Below are positions 192 to 43,122 of a DNA stretch of 44,889 bases, one piece after another (position 1 is the stretch's first letter; every line of letters starts with the position of its first letter). The stretch comes from a virus. The notes beneath the pieces were generated by a model, which saw only the letters and a list, made by a program, of their open reading frames with translations, searched no databases and was not told the DNA's origin. A program made the translations under genes and the position numbers. Location: the IMG/VR virus record IMGVR_UViG_3300025897_000024, positions 1-44,889 of that record. The stretch is one strand, 5' to 3'.

Positions 192-202
192 TCTCCGTGG
201 TT
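192..202 (-). promoter_or_regulatory. Start-associated sequence, copy 1
   Basis: Perfect AACCACGGAGA on the minus strand, followed by CCAAA and the ATG at 186. The stop codon TAA of the 27-residue peptide upstream (202-204) overlaps its first base. Confidence 0.8.
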
Positions 203-285
203 TAAAGAAAGAATAGTATCGGGAGTGAACAAAACATTGCCATCCCTAATACGCCCATTGTAATTTTAAAAGCTGACATCATCAT
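202..285 (-). CDS. 27-residue hydrophobic peptide, probable single membrane helix
   Basis: A short frame begins ATGATGATGTCA and encodes MMMSAFKITMGVLGMAMF followed by a hydrophobic stretch ending LPILFFL. Almost the whole peptide could form one transmembrane helix. Its ATG overlaps the TGA stop of the 94-residue gene (ATGA arrangement), which suggests translational coupling, and its own stop falls at the edge of the next start-associated sequence. It fills the only space between two well-supported genes. No ribosome binding site of its own was seen, so expression depends on coupling. Function unknown. Confidence 0.45.
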   Translation of the reverse strand: MMMSAFKITMGVLGMAMFCSLPILFFL

Positions 286-566
286 ACATACTCCCAATGA
301 GTGCCAGCTTGTCTAAGCCATCGTTGCGCTGTTTCAAAATCAGGTGCGCCAACTTTTAGCGTGACATTGATGGCGGCAAGCCTTTCAGCTTTTTCACGCC
401 GTGCATCTTCATCTGCGATAATCTGTAAACCTTGCAATTTTGCAGCGTAATTTTCAAATGTCCAACCCTCTGTATTCCGAGGTCGTACACCGTGGACTTC
501 CTTGAATGTATCACTGTAGGCTTGCGCCATATCTTCAAGGGTTGCGGCTCTAATATAATCAGTCAT
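282..566 (-). CDS. 94-residue protein of unknown function
   Basis: The protein begins MTDYIRAATLEDMAQAYSD and is mostly helical in character, with a charged middle (ADEDARREKAERLAA) and a Trp-containing C-terminus (RWLRQAGTHWEYV). No known domain is recognised. The start at 566 follows GGAGA plus five A residues, part of a shortened start-associated sequence. The stop overlaps the start of the hydrophobic peptide at 285. It belongs to the leftward early cluster whose only promoter candidate lies at 961-995. Confidence 0.75.
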   Translation of the reverse strand: MTDYIRAATLEDMAQAYSDTFKEVHGVRPRNTEGWTFENYAAKLQGLQIIADEDARREKAERLAAINVTLKVGAPDFETAQRWLRQAGTHWEYV

Positions 567-571
567 TTTTT

Positions 572-580
572 TCTCCGTGG
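572..580 (-). promoter_or_regulatory. Start-associated sequence, copy 2 (shortened)
   Basis: CCACGGAGA is kept, but the leading AA is replaced by AG. Spacer AAAAA, then ATG at 566. No stop codon overlaps this copy. Confidence 0.7.
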
Positions 581-589
581 CTGTGTAGA

Positions 590-745
590 TTATTTTTTAT
601 TTTGTATAATCTTTTTGAATGAATAGTTGATGCTGTTGTTGGCTTGAGTCAGCTTTGCGGTATCGCCAGCGTTTGCGGCGTTTACAGCTTTGATAATTGC
701 TGCGGCTGCTTCCAAAGTCCAAAAATCATCGTGCTTGTTAATCAT
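590..745 (-). CDS. 51-residue protein of unknown function
   Basis: The protein runs MINKHDDFWTLEAAAAIIKA and ends FKKIIQNKK. The N-terminal half is alanine-rich and predicted helical; the end is basic. The start is set by a perfect start-associated sequence 5 nt upstream (751-761). No family is recognised. It lies third in the leftward early cluster; a short gap of about 10 bases separates its stop from the next start-associated sequence. Confidence 0.65.
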   Translation of the reverse strand: MINKHDDFWTLEAAAAIIKAVNAANAGDTAKLTQANNSINYSFKKIIQNKK

Positions 746-750
746 TTCAA

Positions 751-761
751 TCTCCGTGGTT
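751..761 (-). promoter_or_regulatory. Start-associated sequence, copy 3
   Basis: Perfect AACCACGGAGA, spacer TTGAA, ATG at 745. The upstream gene ends with the TAA at 760-762, which is built into this element. Confidence 0.8.
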
Positions 762-930
762 ACTTGATAATTTCAATTTGTGTAGGCTTAACAATTTTGG
801 GTTTTTTGTTACGAATAGAAATTACAATTTCGTCATGCTTCCATTTGTTAATATCATTCTTAGGAGTTACTTTGATCACCTTGCCAATGGTGTTTCTAAC
901 CCTAACTGTGTTTCCAACTTGAATATTCAT
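760..930 (-). CDS. 56-residue basic protein, small beta-barrel-like
   Basis: The protein begins MNIQVGNTVRVRNTIGKVIK. The alternating V/R pattern resembles the small KOW/SH3-like barrels that bind RNA or protein, but the resemblance is only in pattern. The rest is lysine-rich (KNDINKWKHDE, IRNKKPKIVKP). It is the first gene after the promoter/operator at 961-995, so it is probably the most strongly expressed of this cluster. The start at 930 is given by a perfect start-associated sequence. Function unknown. Confidence 0.65.
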   Translation of the reverse strand: MNIQVGNTVRVRNTIGKVIKVTPKNDINKWKHDEIVISIRNKKPKIVKPTQIEIIK

Positions 931-935
931 TTTAG

Positions 936-946
936 TCTCCGTGGTT
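936..946 (-). promoter_or_regulatory. Start-associated sequence, copy 4
   Basis: Perfect AACCACGGAGA with spacer CTAAA before the ATG at 930. First element after the promoter of the left early cluster. Confidence 0.8.
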
Positions 947-960
947 TTCGTTGCTTACCC

Positions 961-995
961 ATTATATATCGCACACCTGTTTACCATTGTCAACA
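961..995 (-). promoter_or_regulatory. Leftward early promoter with palindromic operator (site a)
   Basis: On the minus strand, TGTTGAC-AATG-GTAAACA occupies 995-978 and contains a perfect -35 box TTGACA (993-988). AT-rich -10 candidates follow: GATATA at 17 nt spacing, or TATAAT at 21 nt (966-961); which is used cannot be told by eye. The operator half sites are inverted copies of GTAAACA with one mismatch. It reads toward the gene at 930 and lies in the only divergent gap on this side, so it could also influence the plus-strand replication genes. Confidence 0.65.
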
Positions 996-1022
996 CACAA
1001 AATGAAATAAATGAAAAAAATC

Positions 1023-1052
1023 TTGCGATAAAATATTGGCTGGGTTTATGTT
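1023..1052 (+). promoter_or_regulatory. Weak rightward promoter candidate for replication genes
   Basis: TTGCGA (1023-1028), 18 nt, then TATGTT (1047-1052) give 4/6 matches to each consensus box and would start transcription near 1059, just before the ribosome site of the gene at 1083. The match is modest, and the call rests mainly on position. Confidence 0.3.
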
Positions 1053-1082
1053 GTTTAACCACGAATGACCAAAGGAGCGAAC

Positions 1083-1709
1083 ATGAGTTGGGATGCAGTA
1101 GGGCTAGCGGCTAAAGCCAAGTGCCAGAACCCGACCGCCAAGTTGGTATTGATTATGATAGCCAACTACGCGGATGAAAACTTTTCCAGTTACCCTTCAT
1201 ACAAGAAGCTATCAGAGCTTTGCGGCTGTGATGAGCGTACCATACAGAGAGCTATTAAAAGCCTTGTGGCGGATGGTATGGTTGAGGTGACGGCTAGGTA
1301 TAACACTGATGGCAAACAAACTAGCAACACCTACACTCTAAAATTGAGTAGGGGTGACAATATTGCGGGGGTGGGGGTGACAAATATGCCCCCCAATACT
1401 ATCAGAGTTAAACAATCTAATAATACAAAGAGGGGTGACAAATATGCGCCTGACTTTTTAGAATGGTGGAACGCATACCCTCGCAATGATGGCTCAAAAG
1501 CAAAAGCCTATGAAGCATGGATGCGAGTAACGGACAGGGATATAGGGGTTAGGGATTTATTTTTAGCCACCTGTAGCTTTAAGCGCACCACGCATGGTAA
1601 AGATAAGAAGTACATTCCCCACGCGACCACATGGCTGAATCAGCGGCGTTGGGAAACTGTATCAGAGGCGCAAGCCATAACCACGAATAGAAACCAACTG
1701 GCGGGATAA
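1083..1709 (+). CDS. Replication initiator-like protein with N-terminal winged helix
   Basis: Residues about 1-80 look like the HTH_36/replication-protein-O type winged helix: a segment NPTAKLVLIMIANYADE, then SYPSYKKLSELCGCDERTIQ and a recognition-helix-like RAIKSLVADGMV. A Gly/Asn/Thr-rich linker follows, then a C-terminal domain with FLEWWNAYPR and KAYEAWMRV, typical of phage replication initiators that load the helicase. I chose ATG 1083 rather than an in-frame ATG 18 nt upstream because AAAGGAG (1071-1077) is well placed. AACCACG also lies about 25 nt before this start, echoing the minus-strand start element. The primase-helicase follows after 3 bases, supporting a role in replication initiation. 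Confidence 0.75.
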   Translation: MSWDAVGLAAKAKCQNPTAKLVLIMIANYADENFSSYPSYKKLSELCGCDERTIQRAIKSLVADGMVEVTARYNTDGKQTSNTYTLKLSRGDNIAGVGVTNMPPNTIRVKQSNNTKRGDKYAPDFLEWWNAYPRNDGSKAKAYEAWMRVTDRDIGVRDLFLATCSFKRTTHGKDKKYIPHATTWLNQRRWETVSEAQAITTNRNQLAG

Positions 1710-1712
1710 GCA

Positions 1713-3488
1713 ATGCAAAAATTAATTGATAATAAAATACAGTTACGCAACTGGACGGTTGGTGACCATAAAACTACTTGCCCAGAATGTTCACACATGA
1801 GACGCAACAAAGCAGACCAATGCCTTTCAGTTACCATAGAGCCTGATGGGGGTGCAGTTTGGAAGTGCCACCATTGCGAATGGGCTGGGGCTGTTGCTGG
1901 GTCTAACTACAAGCCCGATGGGCAGTATGTAAGGCCAGTGGAATACAAGAGGCCAGAGCCGCTTCATAGGCTTAAAGAGGCGGATTCAAAAAGCCAGCCA
2001 ATGCTTGAATGGTTTAAGCGGCGAGGAATAAGCAAAGAGACTGTAGCGGCGTTTCACATTACTAGGACAAATAATTGGTTCGGCAATGGTGAGGAAGCCT
2101 GTTATGCGTTCCCATATTTCAAGAACGGAATTCTAGTTAATATAAAATACAGAACTAAAGATAAGAAGTTCAGGCAAGAGGGTGGGGCAGAAAGAACATT
2201 ATTTGGCATAGACGCGGTTCGGGCTAACTGGAAGGCAACAGGAAAAAAAGAACTTATATTTGTTGAGGGGGAAATGGATGTTCTTTCTATGTGGGAGGCT
2301 GGTTTATACAACGCAGTTACTTTGCCAGATGGCGCACCCAAGACCGCAAAATTTGATGAAAACGATAAGCGGTTCCAAGCGTTGCAGAACTGCGAATGGT
2401 TGCATGAAGCAGAGAAGGTGATTGTTGCTGTTGATGCAGATGAAGCAGGGCAAGCGTTGAAGCTGGAATTGATACACCGTTTTGGCAAAGACCGTTGCTG
2501 GACGATTGAATACCCAAACCATAATGATGTGCAATGCAAAGATGCGAATGAATGTTTAATGGAGCATGGAGCCGAGGTTCTAAGGGAGATAATAGGATTA
2601 GCGGCTCCACACCCCATAGACGGATTATACACTGTCAGGGATTATGAGAAAGAGGTTTTGAATATTTATGACGGCAATGTGCAGAAGGCATTGTCTACAG
2701 GGTTCAAATCTTTGGATAATATTTATAAGGTGATGCCATCCACATTTGCTGTTGTTACTGGCGTTCCCAACCACGGCAAATCAAATTTTATAGACCAGCT
2801 TGCGGTAAACCTAGCGAGAAATCACGGTTGGAAGTTTGCTGTATTCTCACCAGAGCATAGCACTGCCAACCATATAAGGCGGCTTTCAGAAAAGGTAATA
2901 GCCAAGCCATTTGATATTGGTCCAAGCCAGAGGATGAGTAAGAGCGAACTTGTTGATGCCATGATGTTTTTGGATGACAAGTTTCATTTCATTGAAGCAG
3001 AGGAATCTGTGCCTAGCATTGATTGGTTGCTTGCCAAGGCTAGGGCTGCGTGTCTAAGGCATGGGGTAAAGGGCATAATCATTGACCCTTACAATGAGAT
3101 AGACGCAACTAGGGATGGCAACAAAAGAGAAGATGAGCATATTCGAGACTTGATAAGCAGATGCAAGCAGTTTTGTCGGACACATGAGGTTGCGATGTGG
3201 ATGGTTGCCCACCCAGCAAAGATGCAGAGAACGCAAGAGGGTATAATACCACCGCCTAGCCTGTATGATGTAAGCGGGTCAGCCCATTGGAACAATATGG
3301 CAGATGTGGGACTTGTTATTCATAGAGACTTTGAAACTGATGAAACCAGAGTAATTACCCGCAAGATTAGGGAACAAGGTTTATATGGCAATATCGGTGA
3401 ATGCTTTTTTAAATACAATTTAGCCAAGCACGTTTATGAGGAAACAGAACATCAAACAGTGCAAAACTACTGGACAGACAATGATTAG
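1713..3488 (+). CDS. DNA primase/helicase (T7 gp4 / Twinkle-like)
   Basis: The 591 residues match the bifunctional primase-helicase layout. A zinc-binding domain has C23, C26, C52 and C55 (CPEC and KCHHC). A TOPRIM fold has the acidic glutamate in VEGEMDV (about 184-190) and the DAD motif VDADEAGQ (240-247). The C-terminal RecA-like helicase has Walker A TGVPNHGKS (349-357) and Walker B GIIIDPYNE (454-462), and ends with a DnaB-like region rich in arginine (VITRKIREQG). It should lay primers and unwind DNA at the phage fork. The start follows the previous stop by 3 nt. The gene is full length for the family. No DNA polymerase is present in the window. Confidence 0.92.
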   Translation: MQKLIDNKIQLRNWTVGDHKTTCPECSHMRRNKADQCLSVTIEPDGGAVWKCHHCEWAGAVAGSNYKPDGQYVRPVEYKRPEPLHRLKEADSKSQPMLEWFKRRGISKETVAAFHITRTNNWFGNGEEACYAFPYFKNGILVNIKYRTKDKKFRQEGGAERTLFGIDAVRANWKATGKKELIFVEGEMDVLSMWEAGLYNAVTLPDGAPKTAKFDENDKRFQALQNCEWLHEAEKVIVAVDADEAGQALKLELIHRFGKDRCWTIEYPNHNDVQCKDANECLMEHGAEVLREIIGLAAPHPIDGLYTVRDYEKEVLNIYDGNVQKALSTGFKSLDNIYKVMPSTFAVVTGVPNHGKSNFIDQLAVNLARNHGWKFAVFSPEHSTANHIRRLSEKVIAKPFDIGPSQRMSKSELVDAMMFLDDKFHFIEAEESVPSIDWLLAKARAACLRHGVKGIIIDPYNEIDATRDGNKREDEHIRDLISRCKQFCRTHEVAMWMVAHPAKMQRTQEGIIPPPSLYDVSGSAHWNNMADVGLVIHRDFETDETRVITRKIREQGLYGNIGECFFKYNLAKHVYEETEHQTVQNYWTDND

Positions 3489-3546
3489 GTGATATTATGT
3501 TCCTGATCGCCAAATATGCTCCCAAGGCATTTGGTTTTCGTGGTTA

Positions 3547-3574
3547 GAAAGGGGGGTTTGGTCGCCCCCCTTTC
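3547..3574 (+). terminator. GC-rich terminator-like hairpin after the primase-helicase
   Basis: GAAAGGGGGG (3547-3556) pairs perfectly with CCCCCCTTTC (3565-3574) around the loop TTTGGTCG. The 10-bp stem is very stable, but the downstream tract is only GTATTT, so termination efficiency is uncertain. It separates the replication unit from the ParB cassette; the rest of the 139-base gap holds no gene. Confidence 0.6.
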
Positions 3575-3627
3575 GTATTTGCATCTTATAAAGTTTTGAT
3601 GTAATCTATCCCAAAATGGGGTGATTT

Positions 3628-4236
3628 ATGGAAATCAAAGAAGTGCCAGTTACAGATGTAAAGCCATACACAGGCAACCCAAGAGTCATATCTGAGTCAG
3701 CGGTCAACTCAGTTTCAGACAGCATTAAAAGTTTCGGCTGGCAACAGCCCATAGTGGTTGATGGTGATTATGTAATTATTGCGGGTCACACAAGATTCCT
3801 TGCGGCAAAAAAGCTGGGGATGAAAACTGTACCAATTAAAATTTCAGATAATTTAACTATTGATCAAATAAAAGCGTTTCGCATTTTAGATAATAAATTA
3901 AATGAATTGACAACATGGGATGATGGTTTGTTAGAGGCTGAAATGGCTCTTATTGAGGGCGGTGATTTAGAAGCGTTTAAGCACTTATGGGAAACAACAG
4001 AAATCACTCAATCTGCTGGCGACATTGAGTTCCTTAATGATATGATTGACAAGGAAAACTCAGACTCAGTTGATTCTGATGTAATAGGTTCAGTGGGTGA
4101 TTATGTAACCATGAGCTTTGTCATGTCACCGCAAGATAGAGATTTGGTTTTGAGTGCTTTACGCAATATTCAAAATCAAGAAAAATTAGATAACGTGACG
4201 CAAGCATTAATTAAAATAACAAAGGAATTCGTATAA
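3628..4236 (+). CDS. ParB/Srx-fold protein
   Basis: Residues about 1-105 form a ParB/sulfiredoxin-type domain: an N-terminal strand (IKEVPVTDVKPYTGNPR), a helix (SVSDSIKSFGWQQPIVV), the signature GHTR (53-56) in IIAGHTRFLAAKKLG, and IDQIKAFRILDNKLNEL. The same domain is found in phage ParB proteins and in ParB fused to DNA methyltransferases. The C-terminal 90 residues are not recognised and contain no methyltransferase motif. The SD is GGGGTGA. The gene overlaps the next by 1 nt and begins a four-gene operon. Likely nucleotide binding or hydrolysis; the true substrate is unknown. Confidence 0.82.
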   Translation: MEIKEVPVTDVKPYTGNPRVISESAVNSVSDSIKSFGWQQPIVVDGDYVIIAGHTRFLAAKKLGMKTVPIKISDNLTIDQIKAFRILDNKLNELTTWDDGLLEAEMALIEGGDLEAFKHLWETTEITQSAGDIEFLNDMIDKENSDSVDSDVIGSVGDYVTMSFVMSPQDRDLVLSALRNIQNQEKLDNVTQALIKITKEFV

Positions 4237-4919
4237 TGGAAATAATCTATGAGCCAAAACACACAGAGGGAATTCGCGCACTTGATACAATGTATCCAAC
4301 TTATGCGATGTATTTTGATAAAGATGTTAAAGAACAGGGCATACCTCATGCCACCACGTTTGGGTATGTGCTAACAGGCTCAGCAAAAATTACCGCGAAT
4401 GGTCAGGGCTGGTGGGTTCAAGAAGGAAATTATTTTGCATTTCACGGAGCCTATGACATTTCAGATTCATCTGATTTCAAACTCTGGACTGTAACGAAGC
4501 TAGGGTATCGGTGTATGCCAGTAATGGGTCAAACGGAATCAAATGGTCGATTGTCATATATTGATGGTTGCTCTGATAGTGTTTTGGTTTCAATGCCAAG
4601 GCAAGGTGATCCAGTTCTTAACTATCTGCATTTCCCAACTGGCATTTATCAAACCCAACACACTCACCCTTCAGTAAGGATGGGCGTTGTAATTGGTGGT
4701 GAGGGAGAGGCTTTTCAAGAAAAAAGTAATTATAGCGATGGCTGGGTCAAGCCTTTGAAAAAAGGGTGTATTTTTATGCTCACTGAACAGGAGCTTCATT
4801 CATTTAGAACCAGCAATAGTCACATGGATATTGTTGCATTCCATCCAGATAGTGATACAGGTCCAACTGATGAAAACCATTCAATGATAAACCGAACTTA
4901 CATTGACCATGGAAAGTAA
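4236..4919 (+). CDS. Two-domain cupin protein
   Basis: The C-terminal cupin carries a complete metal site: HTH in QTQHTHPSVRM (motif 1), the following acidic residue in GEGEAF, and H in EQELHSFRTSN (motif 2). The N-terminal half has a cupin-like barrel pattern (HATTFGYVLTGSAKI, WWVQEGNYFAF), probably without a full metal site. Cupins bind metal and act as oxygenases, isomerases or binding proteins; the substrate cannot be read from sequence. It sits between a ParB protein and a PP-loop enzyme with 1-2 nt junctions, so a joint biochemical task is likely. Confidence 0.75.
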   Translation: MEIIYEPKHTEGIRALDTMYPTYAMYFDKDVKEQGIPHATTFGYVLTGSAKITANGQGWWVQEGNYFAFHGAYDISDSSDFKLWTVTKLGYRCMPVMGQTESNGRLSYIDGCSDSVLVSMPRQGDPVLNYLHFPTGIYQTQHTHPSVRMGVVIGGEGEAFQEKSNYSDGWVKPLKKGCIFMLTEQELHSFRTSNSHMDIVAFHPDSDTGPTDENHSMINRTYIDHGK

Positions 4920-4921
4920 AA

Positions 4922-6130
4922 ATGGGTCGTCTCGGCAAAAAGAAAATCATTGATAAAAATGTATATGAACTCGCAATAGAACGTATTCATAGGGCTTATG
5001 ACAGGTTTGATACTGTTGCGGTTATGTTTAGTGGCGGTAAAGACTCAACGGCCTGTCTTATGCTTACATTGGGGGTTGCCAAGGAACGTGGCATCAAAAA
5101 AGTGCCAGTGCATCATTTTGATGAAGAAGCCATCCCATATGACACAGAAGAATATGTCCGAAGGGTAGCCCAAATCCCAGAAGTGGATATGCATTGGTGG
5201 TGTTTGCCTGTCAGACACAGAAATGCTTGCTCAGTAAAAGAGCCGTGGTGGTTTCCGTGGGGTCCAGAAGATAAAGAAAAATGGGTTCGCCCCATGCCGC
5301 CAGAGGGTATTGCCCATGTTGAGGGTTATCCAACAGACCCAAAAAAACGTCTAACGATACCAGAGATAAACGGATATTTGTTTTCACCTGAGAAAGATGG
5401 AAACGTGGGTATTATCATGGGTATCAGGGCAGATGAAAGCCTGACGCGAACAAGGGCTATCTTGAATAGCCGCAAAAGAGAAGATAAGCACATAATCAAA
5501 TATGATGAGGGGACATCGCAAGGAAACATTTATAAGGTTTATCCTGTCTATGATTGGAACACTAAGGATATATGGACAGCCCCTAGAAAGTTTGGCTGGG
5601 ATTATAACCACGCTTATGATCGCATGGATAAAGGCGGTATAAAGCCAAATGCACAAAGATGTGCTCCGCCATATGGGGAAGAGCCAATGCGGGGTCTGCA
5701 TCAATTTAGAGAGCTTTGGCCTGATATTTGGGACAGGATGCAAACAAGGGTGGCTGGCGCGGCAACGGCGGCTAGATATTCAACCACGGTTTTATATTCA
5801 TATGGCAAAACACCAGCCAAGCCAGATAACATGTCATGGCATCAATTTATAAAGTTCTGGGTGGATAAACATCCAGAGCCGTATAAAACGCAAGTCGCTG
5901 AACGCATAAAAGGATTTATTCAAAATCATTATGGAAAAACAAAAGAGCCATTATTAGATAAAATTGCTCATCCGCGAACAGGGGTGTCATGGGATTTTCT
6001 TCTTAAGATTGCGGTAAGAGGAGACTTCAAGGGAAGAAAACAGCCTACAATACAGGGCGGCACAGATGAGGCCATAAAACAAAAAAGGAAATATGATGAA
6101 GCAAGGTTCAGAAGCGCAACCCATAAGTAG
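4922..6130 (+). CDS. PAPS-reductase-like PP-loop ATP pyrophosphatase (IbrA-like)
   Basis: The P-loop SGGKDS lies at 37-42 in VAVMFSGGKDSTACLML. It is followed by features of the IbrA-like branch of the PAPS reductase/DndC superfamily: HFDEEAIPYDTEEYVRRV, the Trp/Cys segment MHWWCLPVRHRNACS, and KEPWWFPWGP. A MGIRADESLTR motif and a cysteine in QRCAPPYGEEP follow. PP-loop enzymes adenylate substrates, often for sulfur chemistry, but this branch has no settled reaction. The gene overlaps the next ParB gene by 38 nt, the IbrA-IbrB order known from E. coli. At 402 residues it appears intact. Confidence 0.85.
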   Translation: MGRLGKKKIIDKNVYELAIERIHRAYDRFDTVAVMFSGGKDSTACLMLTLGVAKERGIKKVPVHHFDEEAIPYDTEEYVRRVAQIPEVDMHWWCLPVRHRNACSVKEPWWFPWGPEDKEKWVRPMPPEGIAHVEGYPTDPKKRLTIPEINGYLFSPEKDGNVGIIMGIRADESLTRTRAILNSRKREDKHIIKYDEGTSQGNIYKVYPVYDWNTKDIWTAPRKFGWDYNHAYDRMDKGGIKPNAQRCAPPYGEEPMRGLHQFRELWPDIWDRMQTRVAGAATAARYSTTVLYSYGKTPAKPDNMSWHQFIKFWVDKHPEPYKTQVAERIKGFIQNHYGKTKEPLLDKIAHPRTGVSWDFLLKIAVRGDFKGRKQPTIQGGTDEAIKQKRKYDEARFRSATHK

Positions 6131-6635
6131 TGTGCAATGGGTCAATAGAGATACGCTACACGCAAACTCCTACAATCCAAACAAAGTCGCACCAGTAGAG
6201 CTTGAGCTTCTAGTTCAATCTATCTTGACTTGCGGGTGGACACAGCCTGTTGTTGTCAGATCAAATAATGAAATTGTGGACGGCTATCATAGGTGGTTGG
6301 TATCTGGTGATGATAGAATTGCTGAGAGAACTGGTGGTATGGTTCCTGTCGTTATGTTGCCTGATGATATGGGAATGGCGGAACAGGTGTCAGCTACTAT
6401 CACGCACAACAGGGCAAGGGGCAATCACTTTGTAATGTCAATGGCGGAGATAGTTCGAAGCCTTAAAGATGAACAGGGCGTTGATGATGAATGGATAGCA
6501 ACACACCTTGGTATGGAACAGGACGAGATTGAAAGGCTTTATGACAATGCGGGATCACCCGATACTAAAGGCGACCCCGATGATGAATTTGAAGATGGGT
6601 GGGTTCCAGATTTTACTAGAATGGAAGGCGGTTAA
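6093..6635 (+). CDS. IbrB-like ParB-domain protein
   Basis: A ParB/Srx domain covers about 10-130: VNRDTLHANSYNPNKV, LVQSILTCGWTQPVVV, the signature GYHR (64-67) in IVDGYHRWLVSGD, and the late helices THNRARGNHFVMSMAEIV and WIATHLGMEQDEIERL, which form an HTH-like region. The C-terminus is acidic. AAGGA upstream of the ATG at 6093 lies inside the end of the previous gene, so translation is coupled. It differs from the first ParB protein of the cassette, so two divergent paralogues flank the cupin and PP-loop genes. Its stop overlaps the convergent GGCT gene by 4 nt. Confidence 0.8.
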   Translation: MMKQGSEAQPISSVQWVNRDTLHANSYNPNKVAPVELELLVQSILTCGWTQPVVVRSNNEIVDGYHRWLVSGDDRIAERTGGMVPVVMLPDDMGMAEQVSATITHNRARGNHFVMSMAEIVRSLKDEQGVDDEWIATHLGMEQDEIERLYDNAGSPDTKGDPDDEFEDGWVPDFTRMEGG

Positions 6636-7093
6636 GTTTTCCAGCGTTTAGGTATATGACCATCATTTGAATCATAATCTTTTGTAAAGGCTAAAGCTGC
6701 ATCAATGTATGTTTCATCTAACCCAAAATCATCATATCCTTGGCGTATAGCATTCAAGTATCCGATTGGTGGCATGGCAAGCCCATGACCATTCATCACA
6801 TAGGCCATATAAACATCACCTGTCTTTGTGTTATCAAAATATTCTTTCCGATAGAGATTGGGGAATCCCTCATATCTATCTAAAGCCTTTTCACAAGACT
6901 CAGTTATTTCCCATAACACTACAGGAACTTTCCATCCCTTTGCAGGGATGATGTCAGCAACGCCACGGAACACAAGTCTGTAATCTGGTAGTAACATACT
7001 CACTATCGGTTTGGCATCAGGGCAACGCATGGACATTTGAGTTTTATTTAGGTTGCTCCCATAGGCCACATAAAAAGGTTGTTTGGTTATCAT
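6632..7093 (-). CDS. Gamma-glutamylcyclotransferase-like (GGCT/AIG2) protein
   Basis: The family glycine loop is YGSNL (11-15) in FYVAYGSNLNKTQM, and the catalytic glutamate is E75 in LDRYEGFPNLYRKEY. Family members release 5-oxoproline from gamma-glutamyl groups. At 153 residues it is full length. The ATG overlaps the stop of the preceding small gene (TAATG), with GGAG 9 nt before. It is the last gene of a three-gene unit led by an amidoligase. Amidoligases and GGCT proteins are known to co-occur in phage and bacterial gene clusters, which suggests making and removing amide-linked glutamyl-type groups; the acceptor is unknown. Confidence 0.85.
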   Translation of the reverse strand: MITKQPFYVAYGSNLNKTQMSMRCPDAKPIVSMLLPDYRLVFRGVADIIPAKGWKVPVVLWEITESCEKALDRYEGFPNLYRKEYFDNTKTGDVYMAYVMNGHGLAMPPIGYLNAIRQGYDDFGLDETYIDAALAFTKDYDSNDGHIPKRWKT

Positions 7094-7329
7094 TAGTTCT
7101 TACTCCATTTTGTCAACATACCTTCATCAAGCATAGATGCTATAAATGTTTCTGGTGTGTCAGGGTCTAATTTGCTGCTATTGTAAATCATTGTCCACTT
7201 TGTAACGAGGTTCATAAATTCGAATATATCATTAGTGCCAACAATCGTGTCATTTCGTAATTGTTCAACAAGGCTTCTTTCGTCCTTTGCGCTAAACAAT
7301 TTCCCATCATATGTTTGGAACACATACAT
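7093..7329 (-). CDS. 78-residue protein linked to the amidoligase
   Basis: The protein begins MYVFQTYDGKLFSAKDERSL and ends EGMLTKWSKN; it looks small, alpha/beta and soluble, and no family is recognised. ATG 7329 is preferred to the in-frame ATG 18 nt upstream because AGGAGG, located in the last Arg codons of the amidoligase, sits at the right distance. Both ends are coupled: it starts 1 nt after the amidoligase stop and its stop overlaps the GGCT start. It may be the acceptor or a partner of the amidoligase, which is only a suggestion from position. Confidence 0.7.
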   Translation of the reverse strand: MYVFQTYDGKLFSAKDERSLVEQLRNDTIVGTNDIFEFMNLVTKWTMIYNSSKLDPDTPETFIASMLDEGMLTKWSKN

Positions 7330-7330
7330 C

Positions 7331-8206
7331 TTATGCCCTCCTTGCATCTATCTTGCGCTGTAATTCTTTAGCGCGAGCTTTGTAGAAAGTGCGGGTGGCA
7401 GATGACATTCCACCAACCCGCACCGCCGCACCAAGAAGGGTGTCGAGAACCTTCTTGGCATCCACGGAATTCATTGGATCCAAGTAACCGCTCCAACCTT
7501 TGATCGCTTTGCCATTATCGGCATCAGCTATCAATGATCCTGTCAACTCTATCCAAGCAATCACCTTCTGCTCATTGAATGAACCGCTATGGTGACGTAT
7601 CTCTACAGTTCCTGTTCTGTGATACTTAGCAAGGTTCAGCTTGTTATAGCGACCACCGCCTTGTATCAGATTGCGAAGTTGGGTCACTGTACGACAGCCG
7701 TCTATCTTGGTGAACATGGTTTGCACAGTCTGAGCTAGACTATTGCTGACATGACCCATGACCACGTTTGAGTAAATTGATTTTGTATAGTAAGCGTTAT
7801 CACTGCGTCGGCTAAGTGGCTGAAGCAAGTCTATGCCTTTCTCAAATTTTGCCCAACGCTTGTAAAAGTTGCGGAAATTCTTGATCCGCCAATCACGAAC
7901 ACCCCAATGGATATGGAAGCCGCATGACTCATTTGCGTCACCGCCATTATCACGAACAACGCTTAAGACTTTTTTGACTTGCTCTAATCCATCCGTGCCT
8001 TGCAAAACTGGTGACACAACCTCAAACCCATAACGCCCACTAATTGAGCCATCTGGCTTTACTTGCCAAACGCTGTAGTCCGAACCTGAGTAAGAAGCCA
8101 ATCTAGCATTGATACCTACATGACGTAACTTGCTAACAAGGGTATCCATAGGAATGCCATAACCCTCAAACTCAACTCCGTAAGTGCGATTTGTATTCAT
8201 GGTCAT
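7331..8206 (-). CDS. COOH-NH2 amidoligase (Amidoligase_2 family)
   Basis: The conserved blocks of this glutamine-synthetase-fold ligase are all visible: GVEFEG (10-15), WQVKPDGSISG with GFEVVSPVL (47-68), CGFHIHWG (95-102), RYNKLNL (186-192) and GTVEIRHHSGSFN (199-211). These acidic, His and Arg residues bind metal and ATP in the family, which joins carboxyl and amino groups. I chose ATG 8206, giving 291 residues, because a start-associated sequence lies 5 nt upstream; a longer frame exists. The gene leads a unit with the small gene and GGCT, and has its own promoter/operator at 8251-8284. The substrate is unknown. Confidence 0.87.
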   Translation of the reverse strand: MTMNTNRTYGVEFEGYGIPMDTLVSKLRHVGINARLASYSGSDYSVWQVKPDGSISGRYGFEVVSPVLQGTDGLEQVKKVLSVVRDNGGDANESCGFHIHWGVRDWRIKNFRNFYKRWAKFEKGIDLLQPLSRRSDNAYYTKSIYSNVVMGHVSNSLAQTVQTMFTKIDGCRTVTQLRNLIQGGGRYNKLNLAKYHRTGTVEIRHHSGSFNEQKVIAWIELTGSLIADADNGKAIKGWSGYLDPMNSVDAKKVLDTLLGAAVRVGGMSSATRTFYKARAKELQRKIDARRA

Positions 8207-8211
8207 TTTGA

Positions 8212-8220
8212 TCTCCGTGG
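8212..8220 (-). promoter_or_regulatory. Start-associated sequence, copy 5
   Basis: ACCACGGAGA with T in place of the leading A, spacer TCAAA, then the amidoligase ATG at 8206. Confidence 0.75.
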
Positions 8221-8250
8221 TAAAAACTAGGGCAATGCCCTCTCGACACA

Positions 8251-8284
8251 ATTATAATCACATATCTGTTTACTACTGTCAACA
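8251..8284 (-). promoter_or_regulatory. Promoter with palindromic operator for the amidoligase unit (site b)
   Basis: The minus strand reads TGTTGAC-AGTA-GTAAACA (8284-8267) with -35 TTGACA (8282-8277). A TATAAT (8256-8251) lies at 20 nt, and GATTAT at 17 nt is an alternative -10. This is the same architecture as site a, placing the amidoligase unit in the same putative regulon. The flanking bases up to 8341 hold no gene. Confidence 0.65.
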
Positions 8285-8341
8285 GCAATAACAAAGAAAA
8301 GTGAAAAAAGTTTTCAATAAAAACAGTGACTTGTAATTTTT

Positions 8342-8710
8342 TTATTTTATTCTCATGCAATTAAATTTTTTTGTGTTTTTTATTAGCCTAGTTCTGGATG
8401 AGGAAGAGCCATATTCTTTTGCCATTGCTTGTCTAAACATCGCCCTTCCGTCCTCATTATTAGCAGTAAGATAATCCCCGATATTCATTTTTTTCACTAG
8501 GCTTGCCATTGTTTTTGGTGGCTTGGGAAATAAAAATTTCTTACCCACAGGGGGAAGTGCTTTTTTAATTATCTTGTTTATTGATTCAATCGTTTCAAAT
8601 TGAATCTTGCAAATGTTGCATTTCCTAAGTCGATAGCATTTTGATGTGGCTTCTTCAAAAAAAACGCTAGATGTTGTATTAACGGTTTTGCAGTTTGGGC
8701 AAGGGAACAT
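8342..8710 (-). CDS. NrdR-like zinc-ribbon protein
   Basis: The N-terminus MFPCPNCKTVNTTSS followed by YRLRKCNICKIQFETIE reproduces the zinc ribbon of NrdR-type regulators (CPxC, then RRxECxxCxxRFTTFE), giving C4, C7, C31 and C34 as ligands. The rest is not the NrdR ATP-cone; it is basic and contains KPPKTMASLVKKMNIGD and EYGSSSSRTRLIKN. It may therefore be a phage DNA-binding regulator using only the ribbon. It has no start-associated sequence, unlike its downstream neighbours, so it is probably expressed separately. No strong ribosome site was seen. Confidence 0.6.
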   Translation of the reverse strand: MFPCPNCKTVNTTSSVFFEEATSKCYRLRKCNICKIQFETIESINKIIKKALPPVGKKFLFPKPPKTMASLVKKMNIGDYLTANNEDGRAMFRQAMAKEYGSSSSRTRLIKNTKKFNCMRIK

Positions 8711-8768
8711 CTTATCACTTTCAACTAAGGGTTATCTCTGATACAGTTAATTTGCCCCAATATGGGGG

Positions 8769-8795
8769 AAGCATTAATTTACGATGCTTTTTTTT
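8769..8795 (+). terminator. Rho-independent terminator before the packaging genes
   Basis: AAGCAT (8769-8774) pairs with ATGCTT (8784-8789) around a 9-nt loop, and the plus strand continues with a run of T to 8795. The stem is short but the T tract is strong. It would stop rightward readthrough before the terminase genes. The 117-base gap also contains CCCCAATATGGGG (8755-8767) but no gene. Confidence 0.55.
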
Positions 8796-8827
8796 GAAAC
8801 ACAAATGAGAAAATTTGATAACGGTCA

Positions 8828-9394
8828 ATGTCAAAAAAATTCACAGAAGCATTAAAAAAAATAATCAAGTCAGAGTTTATTGAGGGCTTTATAGATGATA
8901 ATGGGGTTAGGGTTTACTCATCTGTTGAGGCGTTAGCCAAGCGGCACGATGTAAGCAGGGCAACGATTTACAGATATTCAAATCCACAAAAAGAAGATTG
9001 GCAGAAATTAAAAAATAATTTCCAGACACAGGTAGATAAAGAGATTGAACAAAATCGTTTGCGTGATTTAGCTGAGAACGCCAAGACGCTAGATAAAAAC
9101 TCACTTAATATCGCGCAAGCCTTGCTGCAAAGGGTAGGCAGAAAAATTGCCAAGTCCATTGAAGATGAAAGGGAGAACCCTCAATATGGCGGAATTACCG
9201 CTAGTGAATTAAGAGAATTATCACAGGTGGCGGCTAACGCACAAAAGATAGGGAAGTTAGCTTTAGGCGAGGCGCAAGAAATATCAAAGGTATCAGCGGA
9301 TGTTGGAGAGCCAGATTCATACAGGAACCTCATCAGACACTTGGAAGGACTTGCCAACGAAAAGGCATCACTTGGCAAGCACACTATTCAGTGA
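8828..9394 (+). CDS. terS: Terminase small subunit
   Basis: The protein has an N-terminal HTH (SSVEALAKRHDVSRATIYRYS, about 31-51) that would recognise the packaging site. A long helical oligomerisation region follows (VDKEIEQNRLRDLAENAKTL, then ASELRELSQVAANAQKIGKL). Size and arrangement match small terminases that form a ring and hand DNA to the large subunit. The TerL gene immediately follows in another frame, overlapping its 3' end. No clear SD was seen before ATG 8828. Confidence 0.75.
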   Translation: MSKKFTEALKKIIKSEFIEGFIDDNGVRVYSSVEALAKRHDVSRATIYRYSNPQKEDWQKLKNNFQTQVDKEIEQNRLRDLAENAKTLDKNSLNIAQALLQRVGRKIAKSIEDERENPQYGGITASELRELSQVAANAQKIGKLALGEAQEISKVSADVGEPDSYRNLIRHLEGLANEKASLGKHTIQ

Positions 9395-10598
9395 TTGGAG
9401 TGATCAGGCTAGATATGAACAACTCCCATTAGAGGGAGATTGGAATATTTGGTTAATATTGGCTGGACGCGGGTGGGGAAAAACTAGAACAGGCGCAATG
9501 GATGCGGTGTTATTTGCATTGAATAATCCGCAAGTACAGGTGGCGGTAGTCACGCCCACATTTGGCGATTTACGCAGAGTCGCGTTTGGTGGAATATCTG
9601 GTATTTTGCCAAACATCCCCAAAGAACTTTTGTTGGAAGGCAGGGGGCAGGGCTACAATGCCGCCAATCAAGAAATAAGATTGTACAACGGCTCCAAAAT
9701 AATGGGGTTTAGTGCCACAGAGCCAGATCGTTTGCGTGGTCCACAGTTTCATAGAGCGTGGTGCGATGAGTTGGCGGCATGGTTTTATCCAGAGACATTT
9801 GACCAGTTGATGTTTGGTTTAAGGTTAGGAGATAATCCTAGATGTGTAATAACAACCACACCCAAGCCAACCCCTTTAATCAAAAAATTATTAAAACGTG
9901 ATAAAATTCTTATTACTAGGGGAAGCACGTTTGACAACGCAGATAACTTGGCTCCTTCAGCCCTTGAGCAATTAAAAGAAAAATACGGTGACACAAGGCT
10001 AGGGCGTCAAGAACTGTATGCTGAAATTCTTGATGATACAGAAGGGGCATTGTGGAACTATGGGATGATAGATGAAACAAGAGTTTCTAGAGATGCAGTG
10101 CCAGAATTAAACAGAATCATTGTCGCAATAGACCCTGCCGTGACAAATAATGAAGGATCAGATGAGACAGGGATTATCGTTGCTGGGCAAGGGAATAACG
10201 GTAGGTACTATGTTATTGATGATGTTTCTGGTAAGATGACACCAGATGGGTGGGGTAGATTAGCCGTTGATATGTACTACAAGTATCAGGCTGACCGTAT
10301 TGTTGCAGAAGTGAATAATGGTGGCGATTTGGTGGAACGTCTGATAAGAACAATAGACAATGAAGTATCATATACACCAGTAAATGCTTCTAGGGGTAAA
10401 TTGGTAAGGGCAGAACCTATTGCCGCATTGTATGAACAAAAGAAGGTTTCTCATGTCGGTATGTTTTCAGAGCTAGAAGAACAGCTTTGCTCATTTACGG
10501 TAGGCAGTAGGAAATCACCTGATAGACTTGATGCTCTAGTCTGGGCGTTGACAGAACTGAGCCAATCCAGTGGGACGGCTACTTGGAGAATCACATAA
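9300..10598 (+). CDS. terL: Terminase large subunit
   Basis: The N-terminal ATPase motor has Walker A GRGWGKTRTG, VAVVTPTFGDLRR and Walker B AWCDELAAW. The C-terminal RNase H-like nuclease has the acidic residues in IVAIDPAVTNNEGSDETG, RIVAEVNNGGDLVERL and SPDRLDALVWAL. It cuts concatemers and drives DNA into the prohead. The ATG at 9300 gives a 95-nt overlap with terS, which is long; in-frame TTG codons at 9351 or 9372 could be the true start, since nothing recognisable precedes FSDWSDQARYEQLP. The gene ends in TAATG with the portal start. Confidence 0.93.
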   Translation: MLESQIHTGTSSDTWKDLPTKRHHLASTLFSDWSDQARYEQLPLEGDWNIWLILAGRGWGKTRTGAMDAVLFALNNPQVQVAVVTPTFGDLRRVAFGGISGILPNIPKELLLEGRGQGYNAANQEIRLYNGSKIMGFSATEPDRLRGPQFHRAWCDELAAWFYPETFDQLMFGLRLGDNPRCVITTTPKPTPLIKKLLKRDKILITRGSTFDNADNLAPSALEQLKEKYGDTRLGRQELYAEILDDTEGALWNYGMIDETRVSRDAVPELNRIIVAIDPAVTNNEGSDETGIIVAGQGNNGRYYVIDDVSGKMTPDGWGRLAVDMYYKYQADRIVAEVNNGGDLVERLIRTIDNEVSYTPVNASRGKLVRAEPIAALYEQKKVSHVGMFSELEEQLCSFTVGSRKSPDRLDALVWALTELSQSSGTATWRIT

Positions 10599-13748: not shown

Positions 13749-13756
13749 TGTTTTGC

Positions 13757-13939: not shown

Positions 13940-13944
13940 GGTGG

Positions 13945-40463: not shown

Positions 40464-40684
40464 ATCCGCACCCATAGCATCTTATCAATGAACGCTTTGG
40501 CCTCATCAATTTTCATCCATTGGTATGGTGTGTGTTCGCCACATATCATAACATCAAGCGGGTTAACCCTGTTTACAAAACGGTGTGTCGCTTTGCGGAT
40601 GCCTTCTTCATCTTCATGCTCAATCTCTGGCTTATAGATATATCCCTTATGGGAGTACTCAGGTGCGTTGTGCCAATTTATCAT
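40460..40684 (-). CDS. 74-residue protein of unknown function
   Basis: The protein begins MINWHNAPEYSHKGYIYKPE and has an acidic middle (EHEDEEGIRKATHRFVNRVN), then VMICGEHTPYQWMKIDEAKA. No family is recognised. GGAGA precedes the ATG, which overlaps the end of the XRE gene. The lipoprotein gene is coupled to its stop. The order XRE-unknown-lipoprotein suggests one transcript. Confidence 0.6.
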   Translation of the reverse strand: MINWHNAPEYSHKGYIYKPEIEHEDEEGIRKATHRFVNRVNPLDVMICGEHTPYQWMKIDEAKAFIDKMLWVRI

Positions 40685-40868
40685 AATGCTTCTCCATCAA
40701 CAAATTCATGGTCAAGGTTAATCGTGGTGTTATTTGTCTGTTACCGCTTTCAAGGTGGCAGATCATAGACCGTGTATTGTATCCAAGTATTTCTGCCATC
40801 TTGTGTTGCGATACTCCTAGTTTATTTCGCATGGCTCTAAACTCACGCGGCGTTAGAACGTTCTTCAT
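40659..40868 (-). CDS. XRE-family HTH regulator (Cro/C1 type)
   Basis: A full Cro/C1 HTH: LTPREFRAMRNKLGVSQHKM, AEILGYNTRSMICHLESGNR, then ITPRLTLTMNLLMEKHYDKL. At 69 residues it is almost only the DNA-binding domain. It could bind the TGTTGAC-N4-GTAAACA palindromes upstream of five phage units; that is a proposal. Its 3' end overlaps the next gene and its start overlaps the end of the 91-residue gene. Confidence 0.82.
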   Translation of the reverse strand: MKNVLTPREFRAMRNKLGVSQHKMAEILGYNTRSMICHLESGNRQITPRLTLTMNLLMEKHYDKLAQRT

Positions 40869-41123: not shown

Positions 41124-41137
41124 TCTCCTTCGTGGTT
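41124..41137 (-). promoter_or_regulatory. Start-associated sequence, copy 9 (with insertion)
   Basis: AACCACGAAGGAGA: two bases are inserted between the AACCACG and GGAGA parts. The 5-nt spacer (CTAAA) to ATG 41118 is kept, which suggests that the spacer, not total length, is under selection. Confidence 0.75.
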
Positions 41138-41141: not shown

Positions 41142-41179
41142 TATGTATAACATCGCATACTTGTTTACCTGTGTCAACA
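41142..41179 (-). promoter_or_regulatory. Promoter with palindromic operator for the XRE unit (site d)
   Basis: TGTTGAC-ACAG-GTAAACA (41179-41162) with TTGACA as -35 (41177-41172). The -10 is less clear: GATGTT at 17 nt or TTATAC at 21 nt. The operator ends 2 nt before the upstream gene's stop. If the XRE protein binds here it would control its own unit. Confidence 0.6.
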
Positions 41180-41723: not shown

Positions 41724-41947
41724 TAAATTTCTCCCCATCCAGCGGATTCAAGCCAAGCGTTATCTTCTTTAGACATACGCAATCTGTTTTCATGCTCCGC
41801 CATCTTTTGTTTGTTATTAGCGCACTCATCACAAAAGGCTGTATCAACATGGCCTCGCTTTGTGATTGTGGAGCCGCATCTAGTTTCAACTTCTTTGTAG
41901 CTGTATCCACGCTCAACAAAGTAAAATGCAGGGTTATCACACGACAT
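41723..41947 (-). CDS. Small Cys-rich protein, probable zinc finger
   Basis: The protein begins MSCDNPAFYFVERGYSYKEV and carries ETRCGSTITKRGHVDTAFCD and ECANNKQKMAEHENRLRMSK. Cysteines C3, C24, C39 and C42 could form a zinc site. ATG 41947 is chosen because AGGAG lies 8 nt before it, and it overlaps the end of the HEIGH gene. No family was assigned. Confidence 0.6.
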   Translation of the reverse strand: MSCDNPAFYFVERGYSYKEVETRCGSTITKRGHVDTAFCDECANNKQKMAEHENRLRMSKEDNAWLESAGWGEI

Positions 41948-42320
41948 ACATAAATCTCCTCTCCCAAATATCTTTGTGTTTCTGTTCCCATCTGTAGCTA
42001 TCCATAGCGCGGCGCATGATACGCTCGGCTGTATCCGTCCACACAAGGGCGTTCTCTCTTGCCCATATCCAAGCGTACAACTCTTGGGTCAATAGCCTGT
42101 TGCGGGGCATCTGGCGGTCTCCTACGATATGCCCAATCTCATGCAGGGCAGATACATAGTATCCAGTGTTCTTGGTTGGGCGGATTTGTATTTCACGCGG
42201 ATGCCGCCTTGCCCAATAGCGAGGCTCAAAATCCTCAAGGCTCTGGTAATGAACCTTAATCTTATGCTTGGCACATAATTCCATAACGTGCAGAGCCATC
42301 TCTATCCGTTTAACGCTCAT
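41937..42320 (-). CDS. HExxH metallopeptidase-like protein (ImmA/IrrE-like)
   Basis: The zinc site HEIGH in VSALHEIGHIVGDRQMPRNR is followed at the right distance by ELYAWIWAREN, which could supply the third ligand as in ImmA/IrrE peptidases (pattern HEIGH, then E-x2-A-x2-WA). Related phage proteins with this pattern are usually annotated as hypothetical. ImmA proteins cleave the XRE-type repressor ImmR in ICEBs1 and related elements. An XRE gene lies 1 kb downstream on the same strand. ATG 42320 overlaps the preceding gene's stop region. Confidence 0.6.
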   Translation of the reverse strand: MSVKRIEMALHVMELCAKHKIKVHYQSLEDFEPRYWARRHPREIQIRPTKNTGYYVSALHEIGHIVGDRQMPRNRLLTQELYAWIWARENALVWTDTAERIMRRAMDSYRWEQKHKDIWERRFMYVV

Positions 42321-42636
42321 AATGCACACCCTCTACCATATGGTCTAAGACTTCAATCAACTGGTCTGCATAAACATAATCATATGAATCACACACCTTA
42401 ACCTCACCCTTGCGTATCTTTACTGTCTCAATGGTGTAGGTATCATTGAACATCAGGTTAATCACAACCAACCCCTTGTGCTTGTATCCGCTTGTCTTAA
42501 ATTGCAAGCCACCGTGTCTTTTGTCTGTCTCGTTAAGGGCAACAAAGTTCCGCGCCGCATAACTCATAAGAGCCATTGGGGATTGCGCTACAATCTGTTG
42601 TTTAATTGTGTTTGCTATTTCCATTGTTCTGGTCAT
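42310..42636 (-). CDS. 108-residue protein of unknown function
   Basis: The protein begins MTRTMEIANTIKQQIVAQSP and is alpha/beta: helices at the start, then GLQFKTSGYKHKGLVVINLM and DTYTIETVKIRKGEVKVCDS. No known domain. The start follows a perfect start-associated sequence. It lies upstream of the HEIGH gene, with a short overlap, so the two are likely co-expressed. Confidence 0.65.
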   Translation of the reverse strand: MTRTMEIANTIKQQIVAQSPMALMSYAARNFVALNETDKRHGGLQFKTSGYKHKGLVVINLMFNDTYTIETVKIRKGEVKVCDSYDYVYADQLIEVLDHMVEGVHYER

Positions 42637-42641
42637 CGTGG

Positions 42642-42652
42642 TCTCCGTGGTT
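42642..42652 (-). promoter_or_regulatory. Start-associated sequence, copy 10
   Basis: Perfect AACCACGGAGA with spacer CCACG before ATG 42636. The TAA stop (42652-42654) of the upstream gene runs into the first base. Confidence 0.8.
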
Positions 42653-42852
42653 TAGTTATCTAAAATATTATCAATCGCTTGTTTTGCACCTTTTTTAGTA
42701 AGGCTGGTAAACTCTTTGCCATATGGTGTTTCAGTAATCCAGCAACCTGTATTGCGGGAAGTTTTTATAATATAGCCCCTGTAATTCCAAGCCCTATACC
42801 CAGTCCAATAAGGCTGTAATCCAGTTTGTATTTTTTTTGCTGTATGTCTCAT
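42652..42852 (-). CDS. 66-residue basic protein
   Basis: The protein begins MRHTAKKIQTGLQPYWTGYR and has aromatic and glycine-rich middle parts (AWNYRGYIIKTSRNTGCWIT), ending with a basic helix (TKKGAKQAIDNILDN). It might bind nucleic acid. No family. Its start-associated sequence (42858-42868) is perfect, and its stop lies in the next element. Confidence 0.65.
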   Translation of the reverse strand: MRHTAKKIQTGLQPYWTGYRAWNYRGYIIKTSRNTGCWITETPYGKEFTSLTKKGAKQAIDNILDN

Positions 42853-42857
42853 TTTAG

Positions 42858-42868
42858 TCTCCGTGGTT
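42858..42868 (-). promoter_or_regulatory. Start-associated sequence, copy 11
   Basis: Perfect AACCACGGAGA with spacer CTAAA before ATG 42852. The upstream gene's TAA (42867-42869) overlaps two bases. Confidence 0.8.
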
Positions 42869-43106
42869 AAGAAAGTTTAGATGTTAGAATTTTTACTAAA
42901 TCGCGCTTTGTTTCCGCTTTGGCAATTTTTTTGTTTACCTTACGGCCGTTAATAATTGCAAACTCAGATGTATCAACAGCAAACCAACTAATCCCTAACT
43001 GGCGAACCGCAATATTTTCATAACCAACAACAACCCAATCAGCAGTGGTTGTGCCAAATCCGTTACCGTTCCAAGTGGCCTCTTGCGTTTTAGTAAGTTT
43101 TAACAT
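42867..43106 (-). CDS. 79-residue protein, first gene after promoter site e
   Basis: The protein begins MLKLTKTQEATWNGNGFGTT and has ADWVVVGYENIAVRQLGISW, a beta-rich stretch, then a basic helix (KVNKKIAKAETKRDLVKILT). No family recognised. A perfect start-associated sequence and the promoter at 43139-43172 precede it. It begins a chain of at least five coupled leftward genes. Confidence 0.7.
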   Translation of the reverse strand: MLKLTKTQEATWNGNGFGTTTADWVVVGYENIAVRQLGISWFAVDTSEFAIINGRKVNKKIAKAETKRDLVKILTSKLS

Positions 43107-43111
43107 TTTTT

Positions 43112-43122
43112 TCTCCGTGGTT
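43112..43122 (-). promoter_or_regulatory. Start-associated sequence, copy 12
   Basis: Perfect AACCACGGAGA with spacer AAAAA before ATG 43106. A GTAAACA half site (43130-43124) lies just upstream. Confidence 0.8.

Follow-up and report, generated by a model that had tools for sequence, protein, structure and literature searches.

Why should a tailed phage place the same short sequence in front of a dozen dissimilar genes? The question is raised by the virus record IMGVR_UViG_3300025897_000024 of IMG/VR, whose 44,889 bases (the window, hereafter; the material consists of metagenomic contigs throughout) carry genes for a replication initiator, a primase/helicase, a ParB-like protein, portal, head and tail proteins and a lysozyme. 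On the minus strand of the window a start box, AACCACGGAGA, occurs in nine exact copies, against none on the plus strand and none for the reversed control, and three near copies bring the total to twelve, all on the minus strand. Allowing at most two mismatches on both strands gave 18 matches, where 100 shuffled sequences gave a mean of 7.0 and a maximum of 13. An original prediction had described twelve start-associated copies with a spacer fixed at 5 nt, and both statements hold: the ATG lies 5 nt past the box in 11 of the 12 cases, and 8 nt past it in the remaining one. We consider it likely that the box is a start-associated sequence which also forms the unvarying junction between the units of a gene-cassette system, whose genes are probably early ones.

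The boxes do not stand alone. The motif GTTGAC-N4-GTAAAC is present five times in the window, always on the minus strand (at 43171, 41178, 14391, 8283 and 994), and all twelve boxes fall in five minus-strand gene runs, each downstream of one such operator; conversely, five of the five operators head box genes. This promoter/operator, absent from the original prediction, is thus found at every one of the five runs. In P43171 (43142-43172), which heads the boxes at 43112, 42858 and 42642, TGTTGAC-N4-GTAAACA (43155-43172) lies over the -35 element, with a -10 element at 17 nt; a terminator-like hairpin was seen by eye directly before this promoter. The other four are P41178 (41149-41179, operator 41162-41179), P14391 (14362-14392, operator 14375-14392), which heads an island opposing the direction of the head genes, P8283 (8254-8284, operator 8267-8284) and P994 (965-995, operator 978-995), which is divergent from the replication initiator gene. 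Among 49 unique operators of the phage family, the core is TGTTGACA-N3-GTAAACA, a near-palindrome over the -35, and the -10 at 17 nt has its A in 44/49 and its T in 43/49. Because the near-palindrome covers the -35 and a -10 follows at 17 nt, the element looks like a repressible sigma70-like promoter, and we infer that each run would be a single transcript.

Behind these promoters the boxes follow one another closely. The box at 43112-43122 precedes an open reading frame (ORF) at 43106-42867 (79 aa), the one at 42858-42868 an ORF at 42852-42652 (66 aa) and the one at 42642-42652 an ORF at 42636-42310 (108 aa). A variant box with a 3-nt insertion, AACCACGAAGGAGA (41124-41137), leads to the ORF 41118-40843 (91 aa). 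In the head island the boxes at 14196-14206, 13945-13955 (with a GGGGG/CCCCC hairpin immediately upstream) and 13757-13767 (the one with the 8-nt spacer) lead to the ORFs 14190-13981 (69 aa), 13939-13766 (57 aa) and 13748-13548 (66 aa), respectively. The variant TACCACGGAGA (8212-8222) precedes an amidoligase ORF (8206-7331, 291 aa). Next to the replication gene, the boxes at 936-946 and 751-761 precede the ORFs 930-760 (56 aa) and 745-590 (51 aa), the latter a cassette missing from L066 and its group (L-numbers label the searched loci and stretches); the variant AGCCACGGAGA (572-582) precedes the ORF 566-282 (94 aa), and the last box (192-202) sits on the stop of a 26-aa ORF and opens a gene that the contig end cuts after 62 codons. 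The expectation that each copy precedes a small gene is mostly borne out; it fails for the amidoligase and for this truncated gene, the relative of which in L135 has 377 codons. Likewise, the five overlaps between box and preceding stop codon are real, but the TAACC proposed for all of them exists as TAA/CCACGG only at 751, 13757 and 42858, the junction being TAA/ACCACGG at 192 and 42642 (the slash closes the stop codon). The boxes at 572 and 13945 sit 7 and 25 nt past the preceding stop. The membrane-like 26-aa ORF (202-282, minus strand) is without a box of its own in the window; in L134 and L135 it directly follows one.

Relatives were collected by two protein scans of IMG/VR, one of them represented by the best 80 of 113, which together gave 157 loci and 1.73 Mb, some of it overlapping; L244, which has no protein match, is excluded from the family counts of operators and boxes, and short proteins were clustered by BLAST at E 1e-3 (one comparison at 1e-2). 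ACCACGGAGA occurs 97 times in the relatives, compared to 4 times for the reversed string. Moreover, a search of IMG/VR for operator plus box returned 42 stretches, 41 of them in the phage family of the window, a marine family with a shared start box; these 41 comprise 10 stretches already identified and 31 of 32 newly found ones, which carry window-like proteins. A box with at most one mismatch lies within 230 nt of 52 of the 67 unique family operators (window included), against 84 of 4000 random 195-nt stretches. The box itself is kept in 27 of 39 unique upstream regions of homologues of the twelve box genes, compared to 2 of 70 for the homologues of 16 other minus-strand genes (both before gamma-glutamyl cyclotransferase) and 0 of 302 for the homologues of 12 plus-strand genes. 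In total, 104 unique sites combine box and ATG, an ATG 3-9 nt from the box being required, and the spacer is 5 in 81 of them.

What lies behind the box changes from one phage to another. The proteins behind the twelve window boxes form 12 different clusters; gene duplication as the source of the box copies is ruled out on this ground. Across the family, the 104 sites lead 40 clusters among the 99 proteins of at least 20 aa. Thirteen site pairs are alike (80-100%) over the 30 nt before the box and have unrelated genes after it, and 28 show the reverse, a similar gene behind a dissimilar pre-box sequence (this site-pair clustering used 33 clusters, including one 1-aa artefact and one 14-aa ORF). 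Two fixed loci illustrate this turnover. Counting as first gene the one led by whichever box comes first in the 230 nt that follow the operator, 22 of the 28 replication-gene loci with an operator and 23 of the 27 such head islands have a box gene directly behind it, and the first genes fall into seven clusters at each locus. The MDFIQ cluster (MDFIQVAK-type genes) is found at both. Arrays differ by single units, as in MNIQ>MTD[F/Y] compared to MNIQ>MINK>MTDY, or MTKF>MTNS compared to MTVK>MTKF>MTNS; a third set consists of MISM>MMNY, MISM>MMNY>MTTH and MISM>MDFIQ>MTTH. In the flank comparisons the breakpoints are at the box. Finally, L054 reads AACCACG/CAAGG after its MMNY gene, where the window has a box and the MTTH gene ending ACCACGCAAGG at 13564. 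This junction looks like a deletion scar, such as would remain if the gene between two copies of ACCACG were lost, and suggests that a few box bases sufficed as homology. The role in gene swapping which the original prediction had offered as one possibility is well supported, by unrelated genes behind the same upstream sequence, by arrays differing in single units and by the scar-like junction.

Several observations weigh against this reading. Fifteen of the 67 operators have no box within 230 nt; among these are boxes whose spacing is altered (AACCATTAGGAGA, AACCAACGGAG) and branches in which the leader differs. The remainder of the 39 upstream regions of box-gene homologues are likewise without it. 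Directly behind the operator, a box gene is wanting at 6 of the 28 replication-gene loci and at 4 of the 27 head islands. The loci also overlap or share contigs, so that the distinct 140-nt leaders number 15 (of 28) and 20 (of 27). Several of the 28 pairs with a similar gene and dissimilar upstream sequence are small register shifts only, and 20 of 50 pairs with the same gene and a different upstream sequence have no box in the target, nor have 2 of 31 with a homologous upstream sequence. Homogenisation alone could have made the boxes identical, with no part for them in recombination, and where the ribosome site is common, swaps may simply be tolerated. In the upstream-anchored comparison, 106 of 141 pairs were scored as different downstream, many by register shifts; the analysis that follows uses the 34 same-downstream pairs, L054 having been considered above.

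In these 34 site pairs, homologous on both flanks, the ten box positions add up to 340 compared bases, of which 3 are mismatched. Identity is about 91% over the 10 nt upstream, about 86% over the next 6 nt and about 92% over the gene. The comparison is gapless, so that boxes with insertions are uncounted, and one member of each pair was chosen for having the box. The binomial chance of such a result is about 1e-10 at a flank rate of 9%, a figure for pairs that are not independent, because many loci overlap or share one contig. AACCAC is conserved about equally to GGAG. Only the latter, of the ten bases of the box, pairs with the 3' end of the 16S rRNA of Hellea (GGATCACCTCCTTTCT, L216), as judged by eye on a single alphaproteobacterial end; this end came from a search of five genomes in which a first pattern matched 0/5 and a shorter one 1/5. 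The two premises of the original prediction, pairing limited to GGAG and conservation of AACCAC beyond it, are both upheld, the former for that single end. Because AACCAC is conserved in the 34 pairs and yet only GGAG pairs with 16S, the sequence read-out indicates that AACCAC is retained for a reason other than pairing, which would be exchange, a factor that recognizes it, or both. The same 16S gene holds AACCACGG, the first eight letters of the box, at L216:1436-1443, probably by chance. We take this position to be in 16S helix 44.

We therefore favor the following unit: a sigma70-like promoter with its TGTTGAC-N4-GTAAACA operator, a short leader, AACCACGGAG, a spacer usually of 5 nt and a gene, after which more box-gene units may follow in tandem. 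GGAG would be the Shine-Dalgarno core and would set a ribosome site at a suitable distance before every gene; AACCAC may also matter for translation. As the 10-11 nt that precede each gene are almost identical, short-homology recombination from box to box is possible, and it would insert, remove or replace one gene with promoter, ribosome site and spacing unharmed. Expression might be switched for all units jointly by an XRE-type protein. The candidate is a 69-aa XRE/HTH_3 protein (40659-40868, minus strand) encoded in the P41178 run, which reaches 23.1 bits with Pfam HTH_3 for a cut-off of 23. Homologues lie downstream of the operator and on the same strand in L155, L148 and L157, and the operator is altered to TGTTGACATATGAAAACA in the L058/L066/L142/L169 group, the XRE proteins of L141, L142 and L169 being 43-47% identical. 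We infer that the XRE protein may bind the operator; the two are not strictly coupled, as L157, with an XRE protein of 41% identity, keeps GTTGAC-N4-GTAAAC, which counts against the proposal. In a sister group (L146, L147, L152 and L153) the operator is kept and the leader opens with ATGACCAAYYTAGTGGAGAAC at roughly the position where transcription should start; this might give a leaderless mRNA, or else an in-frame MTNLVEN extension before a second ATG.

The same box was found in a second group of phages. L031, which came from the initial pattern scan, contains AACCACGGAG four times and no protein resembling those of the window, whether at 1e-8 or at 1e-4; its tape measure protein and that of the window each have matches to phrog_1535 and phrog_28918, two broad families. 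A search for promoter plus box added L252 and L253 to this group (51% GC). In all three (L031:4765-6198, L252:1890-2484 and L253:8804-9398), a repeated promoter lies between inverted repeats (TTGACATCT/AGATGTCA), and AACCACGGAG follows it, before different genes. This would favor either a function of the box beyond shared ancestry or a transfer, and does not choose between the two. At L253:9095-9130 a box without start codon is enclosed by a hairpin that resembles a terminator, GCCCCTC...GAGGGGCCTTTT (fold z -2.8), an element also present in L031 and L252; it might be a decoy, a small RNA or recombination debris.

A broader reading can be put forward tentatively, and we give it somewhat less than an even chance: a putatively integrase-free, integron-like capture, in which a selected box of 10-11 nt is both ribosome site and seam, and in which cassettes would be gained, lost or replaced, always in register, at fixed loci whose promoters are under repressor control. 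As the same box occurs in the second group, cassettes could in principle cross phage families. If true, this would explain how phages stock part of their genomes with unrelated small genes ready for translation. Because the family offers many natural gene replacements at two fixed loci, whether the box is kept for translation, for exchange or for both is a testable question, and the pattern of promoter plus box is in itself a search handle for new small phage proteins.

Could AACCAC instead be read at the level of mRNA? T4 RegA, CsrA and RegB-like nucleases are factors that control the translation of a set of genes through their mRNA, and a trans-acting RNA-binding factor, coded by phage or host, might recognize AACCACGGAG and raise or lower translation. 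The conservation of AACCAC, about as strong as that of GGAG, speaks for such a factor, as does the near-uniformity of the boxes within a genome. Some more distant branches have repeated start boxes of their own, CCTACGGAG three times in L163 (with a hairpin before the box, by eye, at two sites) and GCACAGGAG four times in L167, and the second group shares the box with its own inverted-repeat promoter and no detectable protein similarity. Nevertheless, we regard this alternative as rather unlikely. No known RNA-binding regulator stood out among the scanned part of the window proteins, and none of these was named as a phage-coded RegB or RegA. The predicted folds place none of the twelve window boxes in a hairpin loop, and the mean unpaired probability is 0.64 at the boxes, as compared to 0.47 at 16 other starts on the minus strand. 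Moreover, L148, L151 and L152 have two box types within one contig, and the spacing between ACCA and GGAG is variable (AACCACGAAGGAG, AACCATTAGGAG). CsrA/RsmA targets are ANGGA in a hairpin loop; the box contains ACGGA, and is not supported as such a target, as it lies outside hairpin loops in the twelve predicted folds. A conserved 5' hairpin ahead of the box may exist: hairpins can be seen in front of the amidoligase box, where RNAalifold on 8 sequences gave 3 pairs, one of them changed on both sides, with a covariation term of +0.34.

An improbable alternative is that the host group simply uses the box as a strong ribosome-binding site, and that translation strength alone explains why the copies are uniform. 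Indeed, GGAG pairs with the anti-Shine-Dalgarno sequence at normal spacing and, as just mentioned, box regions are predicted to be more open than other starts. But of the ten bases GGAG alone pairs with the single 16S end read; other genes of the phages seldom use the box, as the counts of 0/302 and 2/70 illustrate, and ACCACGGAG-N6-ATG has 0 matches in five alphaproteobacterial genomes, which hold only distant (portal) relatives. Still less probable, in our view, is that a single promoter-leader segment was duplicated recently and its copies have yet to diverge. In favor of this, some genes that differ have near-identical leaders; however, internal boxes lie directly on the preceding stop with neither promoter nor leader, and boxes are retained next to replication proteins that share 66-75% identity, as well as in front of 9 of 12 amidoligase homologues (27-93% identity) whose leaders differ. 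A DNA site for a repressor or a terminator, like the stoperators of mycobacteriophage L5, would fit the asymmetry, single orientation and many copies of the box, but is very unlikely in view of its near-fixed distance to the ATG, the ribosome site inside it and the separate palindromic operator.

The cassette-joint reading places the box among known kinds of element, with evidence of exchange clearer than we found in print. As the original prediction proposed, the closest likeness is to the start-associated sequences (SAS) of cluster K mycobacteriophages, in position, orientation, non-structural genes, conservation past the Shine-Dalgarno core and a linked inverted-repeat promoter. The sections of PMC3203893 available to us describe a short, asymmetric repeat at the ribosome site, almost always in one orientation, before non-structural genes of many families and conserved past rRNA pairing; its role was unknown in 2011 and is still given as unclear in the corresponding parts of the 2024-2025 papers (PMC11373665, PMC12699233). 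The window family agrees in the ribosome-site position near the start (11/12 in the window, 81/104 in the family), in the single orientation before non-structural genes (nine of nine exact copies on the minus strand, none upstream of the plus-strand homologues) and in the conserved positions that do not pair with the Hellea 16S end, as judged by eye. It differs in that cluster K sites mostly follow gaps of more than 50 bp, according to the portions seen of that work, while 7 of the 12 window boxes are within 25 nt of the preceding gene. Because AACCACGGAGA does not conform to the cluster K consensus GGGATAGGAGCCC (at most two deviations, as stated in the excerpted PMC3203893), the window box is outside that sequence family.

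About half of the cluster K sites have an inverted repeat, and in Adephagia the extended element (ESAS) holds a SigA-like promoter, as the consulted part of PMC11373665 reports. In the window an inverted repeat with a sigma70-like promoter, recognized by its sequence only, also lies upstream of the box; it lies over the -35, at a distance of about 50 nt from the box, whereas the cluster K repeat adjoins the box. Our own run on parts of the cluster K genomes Anaya, Pixie and ZoeJ gave 48 sites, 45 with a start, in 30 clusters; the upstream similarity of these sites appears to reflect the repeated extended element. The available sections of PMC3203893 and PMC11373665 do not describe the boxes as exchange seams, the way we read those of the window family. 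The SAS/ESAS of Microbacterium cluster EF (PMC7302621, in part) is likewise a ribosome-site box (13 bp, ten copies) with linked upstream elements and little similarity to cluster K; it differs in sequence (GGGAAAGGACCCC), in hosts and in the type of upstream element.

Repeats outside these two clusters share single traits with the box. In Citrobacter phage Mordin, 8 hypothetical genes follow a leader that is repeated and has a GGAGA core, but this repeat is of 26 bp, belongs to enterobacterial myophages and is not described as a site of exchange in the parts of PMC4611695 at hand. Searching with the Mordin repeat matched 153 phage records, with 11-14 places per record in the 8 listed. Presumably these are Felix O1-like phages. 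Lambdoid boundary sequences differ from junction to junction, whereas one sequence serves 40 gene clusters in the window family. The PeSL elements of T4-type phages are reportedly mobile regulatory cassettes, a view associated with Arbiol (2010) and Comeau (2014). In the passages seen of PMC4503421 and PMC3950731, PeSL is a repeated early regulatory element between genes, proposed for modular shuffling, the unit being a promoter plus a stem-loop; the window seam is a ribosome box, also found inside runs where no promoter precedes it. The lambdoid boundaries, as summarized in part of PMC3029335 (citing Clark 2001), are short conserved sequences at module junctions, again proposed as sites of homologous exchange. 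The box-gene arrays also look similar to those of integron cassettes, of which an integrase and structured attC sites are the hallmarks. Searches of the PMC literature brought up neither this box nor a description of start boxes as seams of cassettes, and among the matches listed for a search with the box letters none was on phages by title.

An alphaproteobacterial host is likely. The genome scan gave alphaproteobacterial titles on 8 of 9 loci, the capsid protein is nearest to that of Rhizobium phage RHph_X2_25 (47%), and the last third of the portal protein to Roseobacter phages (54%). Against such a host, one match of the scan is titled Flavobacteriales, and the main part of the portal has its closest relatives in phages whose hosts are mixed and include Geobacillus. 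By megablast against annotated phages, bases 1-20000 of the window had no match, and the part past base 20000 had a single one, a stretch of 77 bp (27838-27914) that is 84-87% identical to the tail assembly chaperone gene of Methylophilales phages of the Melnitz group (4 records).

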